Source: an uncultured Bacillota bacterium
Lineage (GTDB): Bacteria > Bacillota_I > Bacilli_A > Erysipelotrichales > Erysipelotrichaceae
Length of the DNA: 33,143 nt
Direction: 5' to 3'
NCBI GenBank assembly: GCA_949298975.1
Contig: CASFYR010000030.1
Location: 1-33,143 of the forward strand
Below are positions 3,132 to 28,577 of this stretch, piece by piece. A program made the position numbers and the translations under genes. Within the stretch, counting starts at the first letter, position 1; the number at the start of each line of letters is the position of its first letter. The notes under the pieces are model-generated. The model made no database searches and was not told where the DNA came from. It saw only the letters and a list, made by a program, of their open reading frames with translations.

Positions 3132-3160
3132 TCCTTATTCTTTCAAGTATGGCGCATTTA

Positions 3161-3169
3161 TGATAGAAT
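3161..3169 (+). promoter_or_regulatory. Extended -10 element placing transcription start on the ATG at 3176
   Basis: TGATAGAAT is an extended -10 (TGn plus TAGAAT). It is followed by six bases (AAAGTC) and the ATG. There is no Shine-Dalgarno sequence, so a leaderless transcript is predicted. The 12-mer TTATGATAGAAT (3158-3169) recurs at the PBP promoter (25736-25747). Confidence 0.55.
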
Positions 3170-3175
3170 AAAGTC

Positions 3176-3559
3176 ATGAATAAGGAAGAAACCAGACAGA
3201 ATTATTTAGAGGCTATTTATTTTATCGCCCTTAAGAACAAATCAGTCAGAGCTATTGATATTGTTGAATATATGGGTTTTTCAAGACCAACCGTTTCGAT
3301 TGCTTTAAAGCAGTTAAGCGAAGACGGTTATGTTGAGATTCACAACAACCAGATAACTTTGACTGAAACCGGACAAAAAGAAGCCTATCGCATGTATGAA
3401 CGTCATATGCTGATCGCGGAAATATTCATGCGGCTGGGCGTTGATGAAAAAACAGCCTATCACGATGCCTGCATGATCGAACACGACATCAGCGATGAAA
3501 CATTTGCGGCCATCAGACGCGCTTACGCCAACCATAAACAACCTAAAGGACAAGATTAA
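3176..3559 (+). CDS. DtxR/MntR-family metal-dependent transcriptional regulator
   Basis: A 127-residue two-domain repressor of the short MntR type, with no SH3-like third domain. The winged helix spans about 1-65 (recognition region YMGFSRPTVSIALKQLSEDGYVEI) and the dimerisation and metal-binding helices lie at about 66-127. Metal-ligand positions can be aligned with Bacillus subtilis MntR: His77, Glu102 and His103 are kept and Glu12 matches MntR Glu11. However, Asn9 replaces MntR Asp8 and Cys99 replaces MntR Glu99. DtxR-type iron regulators have a Cys at that second position (DACMIEHDIS here). Family membership is clear but the metal sensed (Mn or Fe) is not. No metal transporter lies nearby. 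The stop codon lies within the terminator hairpin. Confidence 0.85.
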   Translation: MNKEETRQNYLEAIYFIALKNKSVRAIDIVEYMGFSRPTVSIALKQLSEDGYVEIHNNQITLTETGQKEAYRMYERHMLIAEIFMRLGVDEKTAYHDACMIEHDISDETFAAIRRAYANHKQPKGQD

Positions 3560-3603: not shown

Positions 3604-3630
3604 ACAAACATTCATAAGATATGATATAAT
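3601..3630 (+). promoter_or_regulatory. Promoter of agaZ
   Basis: A -35-like TTAACA (3601-3606), an 18-base spacer, and the extended -10 TGATATAAT (3622-3630). The leader is short and carries the Shine-Dalgarno sequence GAGGAGG at about 3637-3643. Confidence 0.55.
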
Positions 3631-3650
3631 GCGTTTGAGGAGGAGTGAAA

Positions 3651-4970
3651 ATGCGTCAAAATCCATTAAAAAAGCTGGTCGATGTCCAAAAAAGCGGCAA
3701 GGCAATCGGTATTTATTCTGCCTGCAGCGCCAATCGTTTTGTTATCGAAGCGGTATTGACCAGAGGCAAGCAAGATGATTCGTGCGTTCTGATTGAAAGT
3801 ACTGCTAATCAGTGTGATCAGTTCGGCGGATACACCGGAATGAAACCGGAAGATTTCAAGAATTATGTCTATGAAACAGCAAATAAGATCGGTTTTAATA
3901 CTGATAAACTGTTCTTGGGCGGTGATCATTTAGGCCCATTGACTTGGTCATCATTAAACGAAAAAGAAGCGATGAAAAATGCCGAGGATCTAATCCGCGC
4001 GTATGTTCTGGCCGGTTTCAGCAAGATCCATATCGACACCAGCATGAAGCTGGCTGATGACGATAAAGAGACAAGATTATCGGATGAAGTAATTGCCAAA
4101 AGAGGTGCCAGACTGGCAAAAGTAGCAGAAGAGGCTTTTTTGGAGCGATTAAAAGCGGAACCAAACGCTGTTGAACCTATCTACATCGTCGGCAGTGAAG
4201 TACCGATCCCAGGCGGTTCGCAGGCTGCTGTTGATGAAGGGGTGCAGGTAACTAAAGTTGAAGATTTCAAAAAGACGGTCGAAACTTTCAAAGAAGAGTT
4301 TTATGCCAATGGTCTTCAAGAAGCCTGGAAAAAGGTTATCGCTATCGTCGTTCAGCCGGGAGTAGAAGAAAAAGATGCCGGATGCACTGAATATGATCGT
4401 GATAAAGCTAAAGAGCTTACTTCAGCAATCAAAGCATATCCTGATTTGATCTTTGAAGGCCACTCTACCGACTATCAAACCAAGATCAAACTTAAGGAAC
4501 TGGTTGAAGACGGGGTTGCGATCTTAAAAGTAGGTCCGGGATTATCATTTGCGGCCAGAGAAGGATTATTCGCCTTAAGTTTCATTGAAGATGAATACTA
4601 TGCCGGCAGCGATCATATCCGAAGCAATTTCCGTGCTGTGCTGGAAACAGAAATGCTTAAAAATGATAAAAACTGGAAAAAGCACTATCATGGTAATGAG
4701 CACGAACTATTGATCAAACGCAAATATTCATTCTCTGACCGTTCGCGCTATTACATGCAAACACCGGCAGTTGAAGAATCTATTGAAGTATTGCTGGCAA
4801 ACTTCAAAAACGGGGTTCCACTGAATCTGCTAAGTCAATTCATGCCGATCCAATACACCAAAGTTCGTGAAGGTCTACTACCTAATGAACCGGAGGCTTT
4901 GATTATCGATCGGGTCATCAATACGATCGACGAATATTTATACGCTACCAATCAAAAAGAATTATTCTAA
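3651..4970 (+). CDS. agaZ: AgaZ/GatZ/KbaZ-like tagatose-bisphosphate aldolase-associated protein
   Basis: A 439-residue protein of the GatZ/KbaZ/AgaZ family. Visible family blocks include FLGGDHLGPLTW (about 88-99), HIDTSMKLADDD (127-138), YIVGSEVPIPGG (178-189) and FEGHSTDYQT. In E. coli, GatZ and KbaZ are needed for full activity and stability of the class II tagatose-1,6-bisphosphate aldolase subunits GatY and KbaY. In some amino-sugar pathways AgaZ has instead been proposed as a tagatose-6-phosphate kinase, so the reaction is not settled. No GatY/KbaY partner is in the window. I chose the ATG at 3651, 7 bases after GAGGAGG; the GTG at 3645 sits too close to that site. The gene is separate from the PTS operons but fits the same amino-sugar pathway. 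Confidence 0.87.
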   Translation: MRQNPLKKLVDVQKSGKAIGIYSACSANRFVIEAVLTRGKQDDSCVLIESTANQCDQFGGYTGMKPEDFKNYVYETANKIGFNTDKLFLGGDHLGPLTWSSLNEKEAMKNAEDLIRAYVLAGFSKIHIDTSMKLADDDKETRLSDEVIAKRGARLAKVAEEAFLERLKAEPNAVEPIYIVGSEVPIPGGSQAAVDEGVQVTKVEDFKKTVETFKEEFYANGLQEAWKKVIAIVVQPGVEEKDAGCTEYDRDKAKELTSAIKAYPDLIFEGHSTDYQTKIKLKELVEDGVAILKVGPGLSFAAREGLFALSFIEDEYYAGSDHIRSNFRAVLETEMLKNDKNWKKHYHGNEHELLIKRKYSFSDRSRYYMQTPAVEESIEVLLANFKNGVPLNLLSQFMPIQYTKVREGLLPNEPEALIIDRVINTIDEYLYATNQKELF

Positions 4971-21034: not shown

Positions 21035-21695
21035 ACTTATACCCCATTCCTCTGACTGTTACGATATGATGACGGTACTTCGGTCCCAAATTATGTCTTA
21101 ACATTTTAATATGAGTATCGACCGTTCGTTCGTCGCCAATATAATCATATTTCCAAACTGCATTGAGCAGTTTCTCCCGGGAAAGAGCGATATTCTTGTT
21201 TTCGGCCAGATAAATCAAAAGATCGATCTCTTTTGGGGTTAAATTCAATTTCTGATCAGCGATAGAGACTTGCCGGCCTAACGGATCAATAGTCAGATCG
21301 CCAAAAACCAAAGTATTCTGACCTTGAGTTGCATATCTTTCACTAACCACTTTGATTCGAGCCATCAGTTCTTTGGGTGAAAAAGGCTTGGTAACATAAT
21401 CATCTACCCCCATGTCAAAACCAAATAGTTTATCGTGCTCCTCGCTGCGGGCGCTCAAAATGATGATCGGCACTTTCTTGATCTCTTTTATTTTTTTGCA
21501 TGCGGTAAAACCGTCCAGTTTAGGCATCATGATATCGAGAATTACCACGGCATAATCGTTGTTCTTTACTTTATTTACCGCTTCTTCACCATCATTGGCT
21601 TCATCGCATTCATAACCATAAAGACCCGCATACTCCTTTACCACTTCTCTGATTCTAATTTCATCATCAACAATCAATATTCGGCTCAAAATCAT
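21024..21695 (-). CDS. OmpR/PhoB-type response regulator
   Basis: A 223-residue response regulator. The receiver has the acidic residues in LIVDDE, the phospho-acceptor Asp in VVILDIMMPKLDG, and the conserved Lys in VTKPF. The winged-helix DNA-binding domain fills about 125-223 (LTPKEIDLLIYLAENKNIALS, RTVDTHIKMLRHNLG, TVRGMGYKFEV). The ATG at 21695 overlaps the dnaE stop as TGATG, but the Shine-Dalgarno site AAAGGAG is only 2 bases away. A TTG at 21689 with 8-base spacing is a real alternative. Confidence 0.92.
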   Translation of the reverse strand: MILSRILIVDDEIRIREVVKEYAGLYGYECDEANDGEEAVNKVKNNDYAVVILDIMMPKLDGFTACKKIKEIKKVPIIILSARSEEHDKLFGFDMGVDDYVTKPFSPKELMARIKVVSERYATQGQNTLVFGDLTIDPLGRQVSIADQKLNLTPKEIDLLIYLAENKNIALSREKLLNAVWKYDYIGDERTVDTHIKMLRHNLGPKYRHHIVTVRGMGYKFEV

Positions 21696-24600
21696 CACTC
21701 CTTTATCTCTAAAATATCAGCGCGGCAACTGTATTCTTTATACATCTGCCCTTCAAAATACAGATACTTCTGTTTAGCGGCGACCAAATCATCCCTCATC
21801 CGGTGATAGAGCGAAGGTTTAATGCTCAAATCCATCTCGCCCGAATCATCAAAGACTTTAAGAAAACACATCTTCTCTCCGGTCTTGGTCGTGTATTCCT
21901 TGATACTTTTAATTATCCCAAAGCCTTTAACCAAACCGTATGAGCGTCCGATCTCATACAGGCTCTTGGTATCATAACCGAACTGTTCTTTGACTCTGAT
22001 TATCGATCCGGTCGAAAACACAAAACCCAGAACTTCTTTTTCCTTTTTGATCCGCTCTTTTACATCTTCCTTGCAATTAGTTAGTTGGAACGAAAAATCA
22101 TCACCAAGCAAAGAAAGAGCGCCAAGCATTTCTTTTGTTTCCCACATCTTATGCAGATTGACGTTCATCGTCTTACGGTTAAGTTTAAAGCAATCAAATG
22201 CCCCAGCGTCAATCAGACTGGCCAAAATAGTCTCGGTTATCCGCGAATCGCAGTTTTTAAGTCTGAAAACACATTCAGAAAAATCGTGGAATGGTCCGTT
22301 TTGTCGGCGTTCAGTAATGATCTTATCAGCAGTGGAAGTACCGATATTCTTAATAATACATAGCGGCATAACGATCGCTGTGCCCTTTACGATATAACGG
22401 TTTTCGGACAAATTGATATCCGGTCCTGCGACTTGCTGTTTGACCCGCTGACATTCATTAAGATATGAGGCACTCATCGTTTGCGAATTGATCGCACCGT
22501 TTAAAAGGGCGGTATAAAAGAACATCGGATAGTTGGCTTTAAGATATGCCTGTTGATAAGCGATCAAGGCATAAGCGATCGAATGGGATTTATTAAAGCC
22601 GTAATTAGCGAATTTCATGATCAAGGCATAGACGTCTTTGGCTAACTTTTCACTATAGCCGTTTTTAAGACAGCCGGCGATGAATTCGGTTTCCAAACCG
22701 GACAATTCATCATATTTTTTCTTGGACATGGCTCTTCGCATTATATCGGCTTTGCCATAACTGAATGAAGCCATTTTACGGGCGATCGTCATAATTTGTT
22801 CCTGATAGATAATGATGCCGGAAGTATCCTTCAATATTGGGATCAGGTCTGAATGTAGATAGTGAATATTATCTGGATTGCGGCGGTTTTTTAAAAACAG
22901 TGGGATATTTTCCATTGGCCCGGGCCGGAATAAAGCGATCGTAACAGCAATATCGCTGAAAGTAGCCGGCTGAAGTTTGCGGATCAAATTCTGCATCCCG
23001 GCCGATTCGAGCTGAAAGATGCCCAATGTATCGACGTTTTTGATCAGCTTAAAAGTTTTATGATCGTCTAACGGGATCTTTTGAAGATCAAAAGGTGTTG
23101 TCTGGCTGATCGCCTTGATAACATCAGCAATAATGCTCAGATTCTTCAAACCCAGAAAATCCATTTTGATAAGACCGATCGATTCTAAATACTCCATGGT
23201 AAAGCCGGTTGAATCAATATCCTGTTCCACCCTGACCAAAGGGACGATATCCGACAGTGCCTCTTTGCTTAAAACGATGCCGGCGGCATGGGTCGAATAG
23301 TGGCGCGGCAGCCCTTCAAGTTTTAAAGCTATTTTAAACAATTCCCGGCTAAGTTCATCCCGTTCAATCTTCTTTTGGAAATTTTCTGATTCATTATATG
23401 CCCTTTTCAATGTAATCTTAAGATCGTTTGGCACCATTTTGGCCAAAGCGTCGATGCTGGGATAATTCAGCACCCGGGCCACATCCCGCAAAACCTGCTT
23501 GGCCCCTAAGGTTCCATAGGTCACAATATGAGCCACATGATCTTTGCCATACTTTTCCTTGACATAATCGATCATTTTATCGCGGTCACGATCCGGAAAG
23601 TCAATATCGATATCCGGCATGCTTATGCGTTCCGGATTAAGAAATCTTTCAAAATAAAGATTATAGCGCAAAGGATCAATTTCGGTTATATGCAAAGCAT
23701 AAGCGACCAAAGAACCCGCTGCGCTGCCTCTTCCCGGTCCAACCATGATTCCCATGCGGCGGGCATTATTGACCAAATCGTAGACGATCAAAAAATAATT
23801 CGCAAAATGCATTCCGATAATGACATCCAATTCCATTTTTAGTCGTCGTTGGTACTGATCAGGAAGCGTTTCCCGGTTTAAGCGGCGCTTTAGCCCTTTA
23901 ATAGCCAAAGCGGTGAGAGCTGCCTGAGGGTTTTTGATATCTCCGGCTGTTTGATGATAATAATCCGGCAAAGAGGTCTTATGCAAAATTAAATCGATCT
24001 TGAGATTATCCGCGAGATGTTCGCTCATTAAAAGATCGTCGTGCTCATAAATCCTTGTCAATTCATCCATCGTTTTGACATAATGACCCCTTTCATAAAC
24101 GAAGTCTTTGTCATCTAACTGTTTTTTATCGCCGATCGCTTTTAAAACAGCGTAAGCCTTCTCGTCGCTCTGATCGAGATAGTAAGCCCGGTCAGTAACG
24201 ATCGACATGATCTTTCTTTCGGTTAATAGCGGTTTGATTTCAGCATTCAGCTTGCGGCCGCCGGCGCTGCTGCCATCACTCATTCCAATCACATATTTAT
24301 CAAAATTAGCGTCAAGCAACGCCAGGGCATTGGGAATATCATCCTTAAAAATATCATTATCGCTGAAAATGCTTAATAGATTATCTTTCAGGTAATTTTT
24401 GAGTTCTGCGGCTTTGATTGTTGCTTCCTTAGTATTTAAAAATGTTGACAAATGCATCAAATTGCGAAAACCTTCATCATTGCGGGCATACAAAACGGCT
24501 TCAACAATTTTTCCGTTTAGATCGACCGGGATCTCCAAACCAAACAACGGAATCAAACCGGCGTTTTTGGCGGCATTATAAAAACAAATACTGCCGCTCA

Positions 24601-24727
24601 GCACTTTGTAATCGGTCAACGCTACCCGGCAATAGCCCATTTCTTTTAGTTTAATGCAAGCTTCTTCAATCTTTATCGTACTGCGTAAAAGCGAAAACGA
24701 GCTGCGCAGATAAAGCAATGTTTTCAT
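21695..24727 (-). CDS. dnaE: DNA polymerase III alpha subunit DnaE
   Basis: A 1010-residue C-family replicative polymerase, shorter than the roughly 1100-1160 residues of most DnaE. The N-terminal PHP domain (1-190) has lost its metal-binding histidines: where active enzymes have HLHVHSEYSLL, this one reads LYLRSSFSLL. The polymerase core is intact, with PGRGSAAGS (331-339), the catalytic pair Asp372 and Asp374 in PDIDIDF, and the third Asp523 in KMDFLGLKNL. Helix-hairpin-helix and OB-fold regions follow (OB about 935-1000). In Bacillota DnaE normally works beside PolC, which is not in this window. The ATG lies 6 bases after a -10 box, so the message is probably leaderless. Confidence 0.96.
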   Translation of the reverse strand: MKTLLYLRSSFSLLRSTIKIEEACIKLKEMGYCRVALTDYKVLSGSICFYNAAKNAGLIPLFGLEIPVDLNGKIVEAVLYARNDEGFRNLMHLSTFLNTKEATIKAAELKNYLKDNLLSIFSDNDIFKDDIPNALALLDANFDKYVIGMSDGSSAGGRKLNAEIKPLLTERKIMSIVTDRAYYLDQSDEKAYAVLKAIGDKKQLDDKDFVYERGHYVKTMDELTRIYEHDDLLMSEHLADNLKIDLILHKTSLPDYYHQTAGDIKNPQAALTALAIKGLKRRLNRETLPDQYQRRLKMELDVIIGMHFANYFLIVYDLVNNARRMGIMVGPGRGSAAGSLVAYALHITEIDPLRYNLYFERFLNPERISMPDIDIDFPDRDRDKMIDYVKEKYGKDHVAHIVTYGTLGAKQVLRDVARVLNYPSIDALAKMVPNDLKITLKRAYNESENFQKKIERDELSRELFKIALKLEGLPRHYSTHAAGIVLSKEALSDIVPLVRVEQDIDSTGFTMEYLESIGLIKMDFLGLKNLSIIADVIKAISQTTPFDLQKIPLDDHKTFKLIKNVDTLGIFQLESAGMQNLIRKLQPATFSDIAVTIALFRPGPMENIPLFLKNRRNPDNIHYLHSDLIPILKDTSGIIIYQEQIMTIARKMASFSYGKADIMRRAMSKKKYDELSGLETEFIAGCLKNGYSEKLAKDVYALIMKFANYGFNKSHSIAYALIAYQQAYLKANYPMFFYTALLNGAINSQTMSASYLNECQRVKQQVAGPDINLSENRYIVKGTAIVMPLCIIKNIGTSTADKIITERRQNGPFHDFSECVFRLKNCDSRITETILASLIDAGAFDCFKLNRKTMNVNLHKMWETKEMLGALSLLGDDFSFQLTNCKEDVKERIKKEKEVLGFVFSTGSIIRVKEQFGYDTKSLYEIGRSYGLVKGFGIIKSIKEYTTKTGEKMCFLKVFDDSGEMDLSIKPSLYHRMRDDLVAAKQKYLYFEGQMYKEYSCRADILEIKE

Positions 24728-24733
24728 ATTTTT

Positions 24734-24739
24734 ATTATA
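24734..24739 (-). promoter_or_regulatory. -10 box of dnaE, predicting a leaderless mRNA
   Basis: On the minus strand TATAAT is followed by six A/T bases and the dnaE ATG. A 4 of 6 match to the -35 (TTTAGA) lies 17 bases upstream. No Shine-Dalgarno sequence is present. Confidence 0.6.
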
Positions 24740-24769: not shown

Positions 24770-24778
24770 TGTTAAAAT
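24770..24778 (+). promoter_or_regulatory. Extended -10 of the degV gene
   Basis: TGTTAAAAT is an extended -10 (TGn plus TAAAAT). It is followed by a short conventional leader with GAGGTGG. It is divergent from the dnaE promoter 31 bases away. Confidence 0.45.
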
Positions 24779-24798
24779 TTATGAAAGAGGTGGTTTCC

Positions 24799-25653
24799 AT
24801 GAAAATAGCATACGTAACAGACAGCGGTTGCGGATCATCAATCGATGAAATGGCTAAAGATCATATCTTTTCTTTGCCCTTGCAGATCGCTATTGATAAT
24901 GAAAATTATTTCGATATCGAACAGGTATCCGTTGGCGATGTGATCAAAGCCTTAAAGGAGGATCGCAACCTTGCATCTTCCCTTCCGTCGTTAGGTCTTA
25001 TCGATGATCTGTTTGATAAACTTAAAAATGAGGGCTTCGAAAGAGTTATCGCTGTTCCGATCTGCAGCGGCTTAAGCGGCACGATGAACGCTTTATATAT
25101 GAGCGCCGACCAGCACGGTCTGCCAATTACATGTATTGATACCCATGTCACCGCACTGGTTCAGCGTTATTTGATCCAATATCTTAAAAAAGCGATCAGT
25201 GAGGATGGCATCGACGAAAAAGAGGCGTTTGCCAAAGCTGAACGGGTAATTGACAGCGCCGATACGCTTTTAGTTCCCGCCGGTTTGAAACATCTCACTA
25301 AAAGCGGCCGTTTAACGACCACCGCGGCCCGGATCGGCGATTTCTTCGGCATTAAACCGATATTAAAGATCAATAAAGAAACCCAGGGCAAGATTGATGT
25401 GATCGACAAGGTCAGAACATTTAAAAGAGCGACAGAAAAAGCGCTTGATATCATGGCCAGCGAAATCAAAAACAACAACTATGTCATCTATATTGCCCAT
25501 GTTGACGCTTACGGTGAAGCGGAAATATTCAAGGATAAAGTTATGAAACGGCTGGGTGAAAATGAAATTCATATCATTCCGTTATGCAGTCCGGTTGCAT
25601 TACATACCGGTCTGGGCTGTTTAGCGATCCAGTACTTTGAAAAAATCAGCTAA
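24799..25653 (+). CDS. DegV family fatty-acid-binding protein (FakB-like)
   Basis: A 284-residue DegV protein. It opens with MKIAYVTDSGCGSS, the lipid head-group binding serine region of the family. SGLSGTMNALYMSAD and the GLKHLTKSGRLTTTAARIGDFFGIKPIL block are also typical. In Bacillota such proteins (FakB) carry a fatty acid to the kinase FakA for activation as acyl-phosphate; fakA is not in this window. The ATG at 24799 follows GAGGTGG. Longer in-frame readings run into the divergent dnaE promoter and are rejected. A strong terminator follows. Confidence 0.92.
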   Translation: MKIAYVTDSGCGSSIDEMAKDHIFSLPLQIAIDNENYFDIEQVSVGDVIKALKEDRNLASSLPSLGLIDDLFDKLKNEGFERVIAVPICSGLSGTMNALYMSADQHGLPITCIDTHVTALVQRYLIQYLKKAISEDGIDEKEAFAKAERVIDSADTLLVPAGLKHLTKSGRLTTTAARIGDFFGIKPILKINKETQGKIDVIDKVRTFKRATEKALDIMASEIKNNNYVIYIAHVDAYGEAEIFKDKVMKRLGENEIHIIPLCSPVALHTGLGCLAIQYFEKIS

Positions 25654-25679: not shown

Positions 25680-25738
25680 AATTATTTCTTAAAGTATCAT
25701 CAGAGGTCATTTCTGCGCTTTTTTAATCGTTGTGGTTA

Positions 25739-25747
25739 TGATAGAAT
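25739..25747 (+). promoter_or_regulatory. Extended -10 of the PBP gene, overlapping the first in-frame ATG
   Basis: TGATAGAAT is an extended -10 whose last two bases belong to an in-frame ATG at 25746. That ATG therefore cannot lie on the transcript. The next ATG, at 25755, is 7 bases after the box, so a leaderless message is predicted. Confidence 0.55.
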
Positions 25748-25754
25748 GAGTAAT

Positions 25755-28577
25755 ATGGAAGAAGTGAAAAGAATGACCAAAAATAGACATCGCCGTTTTC
25801 AAAAACATTGCGGTCCTCTGAAACCCAAAACCGACCGCAATACAAAACGTCTGCATAAAATACTTATCAAAGTTCAAAAAAGACCGCAGATAAACATAAC
25901 TGAGGCAAGCGCTGACGCTGTTAAAGAGCCAAAGGCAGCCATAATCAAAGAACGGGTCAGCAAATGGCGGCAAAAAAGAAAAAGCAACAGCCAAAATAAA
26001 AAGGATAAAGAACAGCCAAGCGCTGTCATTTCCGGCCGTCAAAGACCGAAAGCCAAAAAAATAACTTTTGTGCTGGCCATCTTTGTCTGGTTTATCATAT
26101 TTTGCGGGATTATTACACTTATCGGCGGTTTGTATCTGGCTAATAAAATGCTGGAAGACAAACCGGAATTCAATGCCGCTGATTTAGTCGCTCCGGATTC
26201 AACGCTGGTCTATGATGCCAACGGCAATGTCATCCAGGAATTAGGTGAATACAAAAGGGAAAACATCGATTACGATCAGCTGCCCAATATTCTCGTCGAT
26301 GCATTTTTATCGATCGAAGACTCCCGATATTTCGAACATTTCGGTTTTGATATCCCCCGTTTCACCAAGGCGGCCATCGAAAATTTAAAATCAGGAAATT
26401 TCGATCAGGGCGGCAGCACCTTTACCATGCAGTTGATCAAGAATACCTATTTCCAGATCGACGCCGGCGACAATTCAACGATTGCGGAAAAAAAGATTTC
26501 CCGCAAATTACAGGAGATCTTTCTAGCCATCGAAGCCGATCATGAATTGAACAAAAAAGAGATCTTCGCTCTTTATGTCAATCGCATTAATTTCGGCAAT
26601 AATATCCGGGGGATCGAAAAAGCGGCCGAGTATTATTTCGGCAAAAGCGCCAAAGATCTCAATCTGTCTGAAGCGGCATTTTTAGCGGGAATTATCAACT
26701 CCCCTAATCTTTGTAACCCATATAATGATCTGATCAAAGACAATCCAAACAGCAGTTACACCAGCCCCGATATCAATTATCTTGCGGAAGGTGAAGCAAG
26801 ACGCAATGAAGTAATCAATATGATGGTCTATCATGGTTATATCACCCAAGAAGAGGCCGATCTGGCCAAATCGATAAAACTGGCCGATCAATTGGCCGGC
26901 GAAAAGAGCATCACCAACCAAAACAGCAAGTATTATCAGGACTATATTGATGCCGTAATTGACGAAGTCATCGAAAAAACCGGTAAAGATCCATATTATA
27001 CTTCGATGAAGATTTACACGAACATGGATCCATATATGCAGAAACTGGTATACGACATCCAAAACGAAAATACCAATATCAAATTCAATCAGCCGCTGAT
27101 GCAAAGCGCGATTGTTTCGATGAATAATCAAAACGGTGCAATTGTTGCTTTGGGAGGCGGGAAGGACGATGGCGAAAGCGGATCGCGCAAATGGAACAGA
27201 GCCACGATGTCCAAGATCCAACCGGGCTCTTCGATCAAACCGGTGATCGATTATGTGTTGGCTTTTGATCAGCTCGGATGGGCGACTACCCATACTCTGG
27301 TCGATCAACCGATCTTCCTTTACGGATCGGATAACTTATTGATTTCCAACTATCATGGCCGCTATAAAGGCGACGTCTTGCTGGAAGAGGCATTGGGCGA
27401 CTCGCTCAACACCACTGCCATCGAAACGCTGGAAGCCGTGGTAGATGCCAAAGGAGAGCAATTTGTCGTTGATTACCTCAACTCCATCGGCATTGACACC
27501 ACCGTGGAAGATTTTGATCTTCAATACGCCATCGGTGGCAATAAGTTATTGGTTACTCCGGTTGAATTAGCTGGCGCTCACGCCATGCTTATCAACTATG
27601 GCAAATACATTGAACCACATACCATCAATAAGATCGTTTTTGCCGACGGCAGTGAATACATTGCCGATACCGAAGGTAAACAGGTCATCAAACCGGGAGC
27701 GGCGTGGATGATGACCCGCTTGCTTTACACCAATGTTTACGGCAGCGTCTACAATTCGATGTATGTATTAAAAACCGGTTATCCGGTCTTTGGCAAAACC
27801 GGCACCACAGACTGGGGCACTTCCGGCCTGTCATACGGCATTCCAAGAGGAGCAAAACGAGATAACTGGTTGGTTTCGTCTACTTCCAATTATACCAACG
27901 TCGTTTGGGTCGGTTTTGATAAACTGGAAAAGGGTTCGTATATGTATAACGATACCAATATCAAAGGCCGGATCAGCCGGATGCTCCTTGATGAAGAAAA
28001 AGAGCATTTCAATTATCAGCCAACCGATCTGGCTAAAACCGATGATGTAAGATCGATCACGCATATTAAGGGAGTTTATCCTTATGTTGAACCGAAGGCC
28101 GGCACCAGAGTCACTGGTTATATTTTAAAAGAATTCTATCAATTATATCCGGTCAGCAGTATCAAATACGAACACAAAAAGAAAGAACTGACAGGGGCAA
28201 GCGTCTCTATCAACAACAATATCGTCAATATTGAATGGATCTTGACCGGCGAAGAAAAAGACGGGGAAAAAGATATTTCCGCAATCAGCAACACCGGAAG
28301 AGTCATCAAGGCGACCGGCCGGTCGTTCTTCCCGACAACGATTTGGGATGATCCTAAGGCAACCTATTACGCTGAAATCTACGTCAACGGCAAACTGGAG
28401 CAATCGCTTTCAACCGCCGCTTTGACCGCTTCGGTCGATTTGTCCTATCTGGCGCCGATCAATATCCCCGGACTTGGTGATCTGATTCCTTCTTTGGGCA
28501 ACGTCCAGGGAAACATTCGCGTGTGTGCCTGGTATAGCGAAAACACCAAGAACAAATACTGTTACGATATTCAGTAA
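25755..28577 (+). CDS. Class A penicillin-binding protein (transglycosylase/transpeptidase)
   Basis: A 940-residue cell-wall synthase. A long, strongly basic cytoplasmic tail (1-102) precedes one membrane helix (about 103-127). The GT51 transglycosylase domain has EDSRYFEHFG (188-197, catalytic Glu188) and QGGSTFTMQ (218-226). The transpeptidase domain has Ser492 and Lys495 in PGSSIKP, SLN (550-552) and KTG (681-683). A C-terminal domain of about 150 residues looks like a beta-sandwich. All catalytic motifs are intact. Start: the ATG at 25746 overlaps the -10 box, so 25755 is preferred; an ATG at 25773 is a further possibility. Confidence 0.95.
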   Translation: MEEVKRMTKNRHRRFQKHCGPLKPKTDRNTKRLHKILIKVQKRPQINITEASADAVKEPKAAIIKERVSKWRQKRKSNSQNKKDKEQPSAVISGRQRPKAKKITFVLAIFVWFIIFCGIITLIGGLYLANKMLEDKPEFNAADLVAPDSTLVYDANGNVIQELGEYKRENIDYDQLPNILVDAFLSIEDSRYFEHFGFDIPRFTKAAIENLKSGNFDQGGSTFTMQLIKNTYFQIDAGDNSTIAEKKISRKLQEIFLAIEADHELNKKEIFALYVNRINFGNNIRGIEKAAEYYFGKSAKDLNLSEAAFLAGIINSPNLCNPYNDLIKDNPNSSYTSPDINYLAEGEARRNEVINMMVYHGYITQEEADLAKSIKLADQLAGEKSITNQNSKYYQDYIDAVIDEVIEKTGKDPYYTSMKIYTNMDPYMQKLVYDIQNENTNIKFNQPLMQSAIVSMNNQNGAIVALGGGKDDGESGSRKWNRATMSKIQPGSSIKPVIDYVLAFDQLGWATTHTLVDQPIFLYGSDNLLISNYHGRYKGDVLLEEALGDSLNTTAIETLEAVVDAKGEQFVVDYLNSIGIDTTVEDFDLQYAIGGNKLLVTPVELAGAHAMLINYGKYIEPHTINKIVFADGSEYIADTEGKQVIKPGAAWMMTRLLYTNVYGSVYNSMYVLKTGYPVFGKTGTTDWGTSGLSYGIPRGAKRDNWLVSSTSNYTNVVWVGFDKLEKGSYMYNDTNIKGRISRMLLDEEKEHFNYQPTDLAKTDDVRSITHIKGVYPYVEPKAGTRVTGYILKEFYQLYPVSSIKYEHKKKELTGASVSINNNIVNIEWILTGEEKDGEKDISAISNTGRVIKATGRSFFPTTIWDDPKATYYAEIYVNGKLEQSLSTAALTASVDLSYLAPINIPGLGDLIPSLGNVQGNIRVCAWYSENTKNKYCYDIQ

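Follow-up and report, generated by a model that had tools for sequence, protein, structure and literature searches.

How is a gene expressed when its start codon lies only a few bases behind a promoter -10 box? The question is raised by two loci in the window, a stretch of 33,143 nucleotides from an uncultured member of the Erysipelotrichaceae. One is a gene for a DtxR/MntR-family regulator (mntR), the other a gene for a class A penicillin-binding protein (PBP). A preliminary description had reported a 12-base string, TTATGATAGAAT, in front of both genes, separated by 6-7 bases from a start codon without a ribosome-binding site. Both exact copies were located, and the gaps are 6 and 7 nt, respectively, without a Shine-Dalgarno (SD) sequence. 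The sequence data make it very probable that both sites are extended -10 promoters of the housekeeping sigma factor, at which transcription would start on or near the A of the ATG to give leaderless mRNAs, and that the two genes are members of a class comprising roughly 8-12% of the genes in this genus and family.

Two start codons behind an extended -10 box

The features concerned are the following:
3158-3169, + strand: mntR extended -10, TTATGATAGAAT, with TG at 3161-3162 and hexamer TAGAAT at 3164-3169
3176-3559, + strand: mntR, DtxR/MntR-family regulator of 127 aa, Pfam Fe_dep_repress and Fe_dep_repr_C above cut-off
25736-25747, + strand: PBP extended -10, TTATGATAGAAT, with TG at 25739-25740 and hexamer TAGAAT at 25742-25747
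25755-28577, + strand: class A PBP, transglycosylase and transpeptidase (Pfam Transgly, Transpeptidase), start placed from orthologues
3620-3653, + strand: agaZ/gatZ promoter TATGATATAAT (3620-3630), SD GAGGAG and ATG 3651, a leadered contrast

In the window sequence, the hexanucleotide AAAGTC (3170-3175) separates the mntR box from the ATG at 3176, and the first T of the hexamer lies 12 nt 5' of this ATG, which is the spacing of about 12 bp known from TA-led genes. An SD-like string was looked for 5' of ATG 3176 and none was seen. The gene is predicted to be leaderless, with A3176 as the transcription start site. M1 was accepted as the start of the protein because the N-terminal residues E5, T6 and N9-I14 are invariant in the alignment; the next in-frame ATG occurs only at codon 33. 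The upstream neighbour, on the same strand and 44 bp away, encodes an HtrA-like protease.

The mntR product matches an N-terminal helix-turn-helix domain (PF01325, 38.8 bits) and a C-terminal metal-binding and dimerisation domain (PF02742, 49.9 bits), both above cut-off. Its invariant residues in the alignment include N9, E12, H77, C99, E102 and H103, with positions matched by eye to Bacillus subtilis MntR, whose ligands are of the Asp8/Glu99 type, with Asp and Glu in place of Asn9 and Cys99. Cys99 resembles DtxR more closely than MntR. Judged by these residues, the metal site is a mixture of DtxR and MntR types, and of the original label 'MntR-like' the family assignment holds, but a specificity for manganese cannot be read from the name. 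An autoregulatory operator overlapping the promoter was considered and rejected, as the -10 box is the only conserved block in 20 orthologous upstream regions.

At the PBP gene the box is followed by GAGTAAT (25748-25754) and ATG 25755, again without a visible SD-like string 5' of the start. The ORF list opens the gene at an in-frame ATG at 25746; this codon overlaps the -10 box, so that 25755 is the more sensible start. In all five relatives with a syntenic PBP orthologue, TGnTAnnnT lies 7-9 nt before the ATG, and the gene may thus carry 0-3 leader bases. The PBP gene is therefore better described as leaderless to near-leaderless than as a strict case of 6-nt spacing.

The 12-mer itself is less particular than it had seemed. 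Within the window, the exact string occurs only at these two sites, accompanied by two matches with one mismatch (four in total versus a chance expectation of 0.54). In 788 kb of the host genome it occurs three times, and the third copy precedes a leadered gene. Such a low number indicates that mntR and the PBP gene carry two close matches to a general extended -10 consensus. The idea of a special element common to both was consequently rejected: the copies are exact, but the 12-mer is one among many extended -10 variants. As had been described, agaZ carries the close variant TATGATATAAT with a normal leader of 20 nt, in which GAGGAG precedes ATG 3651.

Spacing of -10 boxes and start codons in the host genome

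A scan for the distance between TGnTATAAT-type boxes and the following ATG had been proposed as a check. It was performed on 788 kb (about 60%) of the host genome (1.30 Mb, 89 contigs, 41% GC), including the window and two short loci; the assembly is 95% complete, though no 16S rRNA gene was found in it. Gene starts were taken from a simple hexamer-model caller, which gave 759 genes and 89% coding sequence in this sample. The number of bases between TGnTAnAAT and the linked gene's first in-frame ATG is 6 in 20 cases and 7 in five, 10-15 in none, and a separate broad hump of leadered genes extends from 16 to 28 nt. Under a strict definition, in which the box reads TAnnnT, agrees with TATAAT at 5/6 positions or more and ends precisely 6 nt short of the first ATG, 47 of 708 starts qualify; when the 60 nt upstream were dinucleotide-shuffled 100 times, the mean was 6.25 and the maximum 13. 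The sharp peak anticipated by the preliminary description, here at 6 nt, thus stands out against the shuffles, the neighbouring trough and the outgroups discussed below.

The start codons at spacing 6 are 44 ATG, two GTG and one TTG (581/61/88 for all first starts), and positions -18 to -4 are free of SD-like strings in all 44 of the clearest leaderless cases. Bacterial transcription usually favours a pyrimidine at -1 and a purine at +1. The base before the ATG is a pyrimidine in 45/47 leaderless but only 171/371 SD-led host genes (p 6e-12), and in the related data sets in 29/32, 30/30 and 31/31 leaderless genes versus 46-59% of SD-led genes. Such a preference is expected if transcription begins on the A of the ATG. 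At the level of sequence, this bias is the best evidence for a start on the ATG, and it is independent of the motif by which the genes were picked.

Two further predicted leaderless starts, at 448 (+) and 24727 (-), were recognised in the window:
436-441, + strand: -10 box TATAAT (TATAATagagacATG), 6 nt before ATG 448
448-1995, + strand: FAD-dependent protein, predicted leaderless gene
24734-24739, - strand: -10 box TATAAT (TATAATaaaaatATG), 6 nt before the DnaE ATG at 24727
21695-24727, - strand: DnaE, DNA polymerase III alpha subunit (Pfam DNA_pol3_alpha), predicted leaderless

For the FAD-dependent gene, the -10 box is kept 6-8 nt before the ATG in nine of ten orthologous starts sampled. 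Leaderless dnaE (24727, -) is divergent from leadered degV (24770-24799, +), a contrast within the window itself; degV has the promoter TGTTAAAAT, followed by AGAGGTGG and ATG 24799, and its ORF-finder start at 24718 is too early. The promoters of agaZ (3620-3651), degV (24770-24799) and other leadered extended -10 genes of the host share the TGnTAnAAT core with the leaderless ones and differ in a leader of about 20 nt and an SD.

Gene content and promoter type

Pfam matches among the 58 leaderless genes of the host are mainly to housekeeping functions. They include DNA replication and repair proteins (DnaE, UvrB, uracil-DNA glycosylase, O6-methylguanine methyltransferase, MgsA/RarA), MnmE, TruB, MiaA, RimM and D-Tyr-tRNA deacylase, as well as IspH (LytB), RapZ/YvcJ, FtsW/RodA, HAD phosphatases, metallophosphoesterases, SIR2 and TrkH. 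Going by these protein families, many of the genes are presumably modestly expressed. Leaderless starts are about five times commoner at genes with a divergent neighbour (27/128) than at tandem genes (25/579; p 7e-9), and in several divergent pairs both genes are leaderless, their ATGs lying 35-58 bp apart. Two such pairs are IspH/DEAD helicase (L036:8776-11038, 37 bp between the ATGs) and uracil-DNA glycosylase/Mur-ligase-like protein (L016:1495-3428, 35 bp), in each of which the two promoters overlap in the gap.

Leaderless and leadered boxes have a common hexamer consensus, and TGnTATAAT precedes both. The TG extension is present in 25/48 leaderless versus 46/132 leadered boxes and good -35 matches in 9/48 versus 47/132 (p ~0.04 each), the leadered set being diluted by false boxes. 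By these sequence features the leaderless promoter is of the ordinary extended -10 housekeeping type, from which only its placement differs. The earlier proposal of a promoter class that sets the start on the ATG is thus retained with regard to the 6-nt placement and the predicted start, but not as a separate class.

Conservation and lineage distribution

Among 23 distinct Erysipelotrichaceae-type mntR upstream regions, 20 carry a -10 box at a distance of exactly 6 nt from the ATG, under a relaxed definition that accepts 4/6 matches with TG. The encoded proteins share 48-75% identity. Conservation upstream is confined to TRTGnTAnAAT and the pyrimidine at -1 (20/20), the -35 region and the flanks having diverged. 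Three loci (L103, L104 and L106) have no clear -10 box at the ATG, and in one of them a weakly SD-like string is present. These loci may deviate from the rule, or their mntR may now be expressed with a leader or as part of an operon. Most Clostridia mntR orthologues have an SD in place of the -10 box. Over all leaderless genes and with the strict box, the 53 orthologous starts divide into 38 leaderless, 13 unclear and two SD-led.

The close relatives of the host include Erysipelotrichaceae bacterium metagenome-assembled genomes obtained from the rumen and from guts of goat, sheep and other animals. The spike at 6 nt is seen again in a genome of the same genus (G016) and in 20 close-relative loci (L097-L116), and in a genome of the same family (G006) it holds 16 of the 29 linked TGnTAnAAT boxes. 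The exact 6-nt spacing is found at 32/315, 30/266 and 31/302 starts in three related data sets. No enrichment was found in G003, the one sister-family genome (3/301), or in Clostridia loci (3/721). Linked TGnTAnAAT boxes gave no spike in 400 kb of G003 (0/62, a thin sample) and almost none in Clostridia and other loci (2/73). As these outgroups were run through the same gene caller, the spike is no artefact of the method. Expressed as a leaderless share, the values are 7.9% in the host (about one gene in twelve) and 12.0%, 12.0% and 11.7% in its relatives, versus 1.3% and 0.9% in the outgroups.

A whole-genome tally of TGNTATAATN6ATG, with sums added by hand, gave 106 matches at spacing 6 versus 21 at spacing 12 in eight genomes of the genus, 409 versus 133 in 41 genomes of the family and, as a weak excess, 496 versus 310 in 43 sister-family genomes. 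Histograms tied to called genes are preferable to these raw counts, which are inflated by random ATGs.

Alternative explanations

Functionless -10-like strings might lie near ATGs by chance in AT-rich DNA. Such strings are indeed common in a genome of 41% GC in which the exact 12-mer occurs only three times in 788 kb, but 47 cases against at most 13 in shuffled sequences, the conserved arrangement among orthologues and the missing spike in G003, which at 28.5% GC is yet more AT-rich, leave this reading practically without credit; it is already refuted by the peak at 6 nt and by the outgroups. It is also very improbable that the promoters are real and translation truly begins at later codons, behind normal leaders. 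For the PBP gene a third ATG at 25773 is preceded by a weak GGAAG and the N-terminus is poorly conserved. The orthologous PBP ATGs nevertheless keep within 7-9 nt of the box, MntR has its invariant N-terminal residues and no in-frame ATG before codon 33, the ATG is held at exactly 6 nt in 20 mntR loci, and the -1 pyrimidine preference would have no reason if the ATG were not the start.

Co-transcription from upstream genes with translational coupling, the -10 box at the ATG being secondary, is suggested by the htrA-like gene 44 bp before mntR and by the three mntR-type loci without a clear box. This too has very little probability: there is no SD for re-initiation, and leaderless starts are enriched at divergent rather than tandem genes, where no same-strand neighbour could supply read-through. 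Marginally less improbable, though still hardly to be expected, is a dedicated sigma factor for a distinct class of leaderless promoters, the strict form of the original wording. Leaderless boxes are slightly richer in TG and poorer in -35 matches, but leadered genes also have TGnTATAAT in front of them, with an equal hexamer consensus apart from these mild differences.

The preferred reading remains that of extended -10 promoters placed directly at the start codon. At both mntR and the PBP gene, the sigma-A holoenzyme would be used and RNA polymerase would start on the A of the ATG or 1-3 nt from it. As the mRNAs would begin with AUG, their translation would require SD-independent initiation at the 5'-terminal AUG. 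In other bacteria leaderless mRNAs are engaged by 70S ribosomes with IF2 and fMet-tRNA. Most other genes in the Erysipelotrichaceae genomes studied keep SD sites.

Relation to known leaderless genes and significance

Zheng et al. (2011; PMC3160421) define TA-led genes as those with a Pribnow box some 12 bp 5' of the start codon; their Firmicutes examples come mainly from Lactobacillales and Mycoplasma, and the TG is strong in Lactococcus. The genes described here are alike in the position of the -10 box, the lack of an SD and the TG extension in low-GC Firmicutes, but belong to Erysipelotrichaceae; a text search of that paper found no mention of Erysipelotrichia. In Streptococcus pyogenes, S. 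agalactiae and S. pneumoniae, 8.6-9% of mRNAs are leaderless and the identity of the genes is strongly conserved, 54/67 being common to two species (PMC6431027). The leaderless share, the extended -10 promoters and the conserved gene set are similar here; the streptococcal data come from 5'-end RNA-seq in the order Lactobacillales, whereas the present ones are predictions. Only 15 potential leaderless cases were listed for Clostridioides difficile (PMC7438776). A full-text literature search combining leaderless with Erysipelotrichaceae retrieved only unrelated papers. The mechanism is known, and its presence at streptococcal level in Erysipelotrichaceae appears unreported in the literature searched.

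A broader interpretation is offered tentatively and is rather less likely than not to hold in full. The leaderless mode might have become fixed across the Erysipelotrichaceae and been selected on certain housekeeping genes of low expression (mntR, DnaE, UvrB, MnmE, TruB, IspH, PBP), packing divergent genes head to head with ATGs 35-58 bp apart and both promoters in the gap; the sister family might have lost this mode or never acquired it.

Gene finders built to look for an SD may misplace starts in common gut genomes, as illustrated by the PBP gene with its three candidate ATGs. Leaderless genes of Firmicutes have so far come mainly from streptococci and lactococci and from mycoplasmas. The Erysipelotrichaceae would add a third, sharply bounded clade (8-12%) and a clean setting for studying when leaderless initiation arises, for what reason, and in which genes it is retained.
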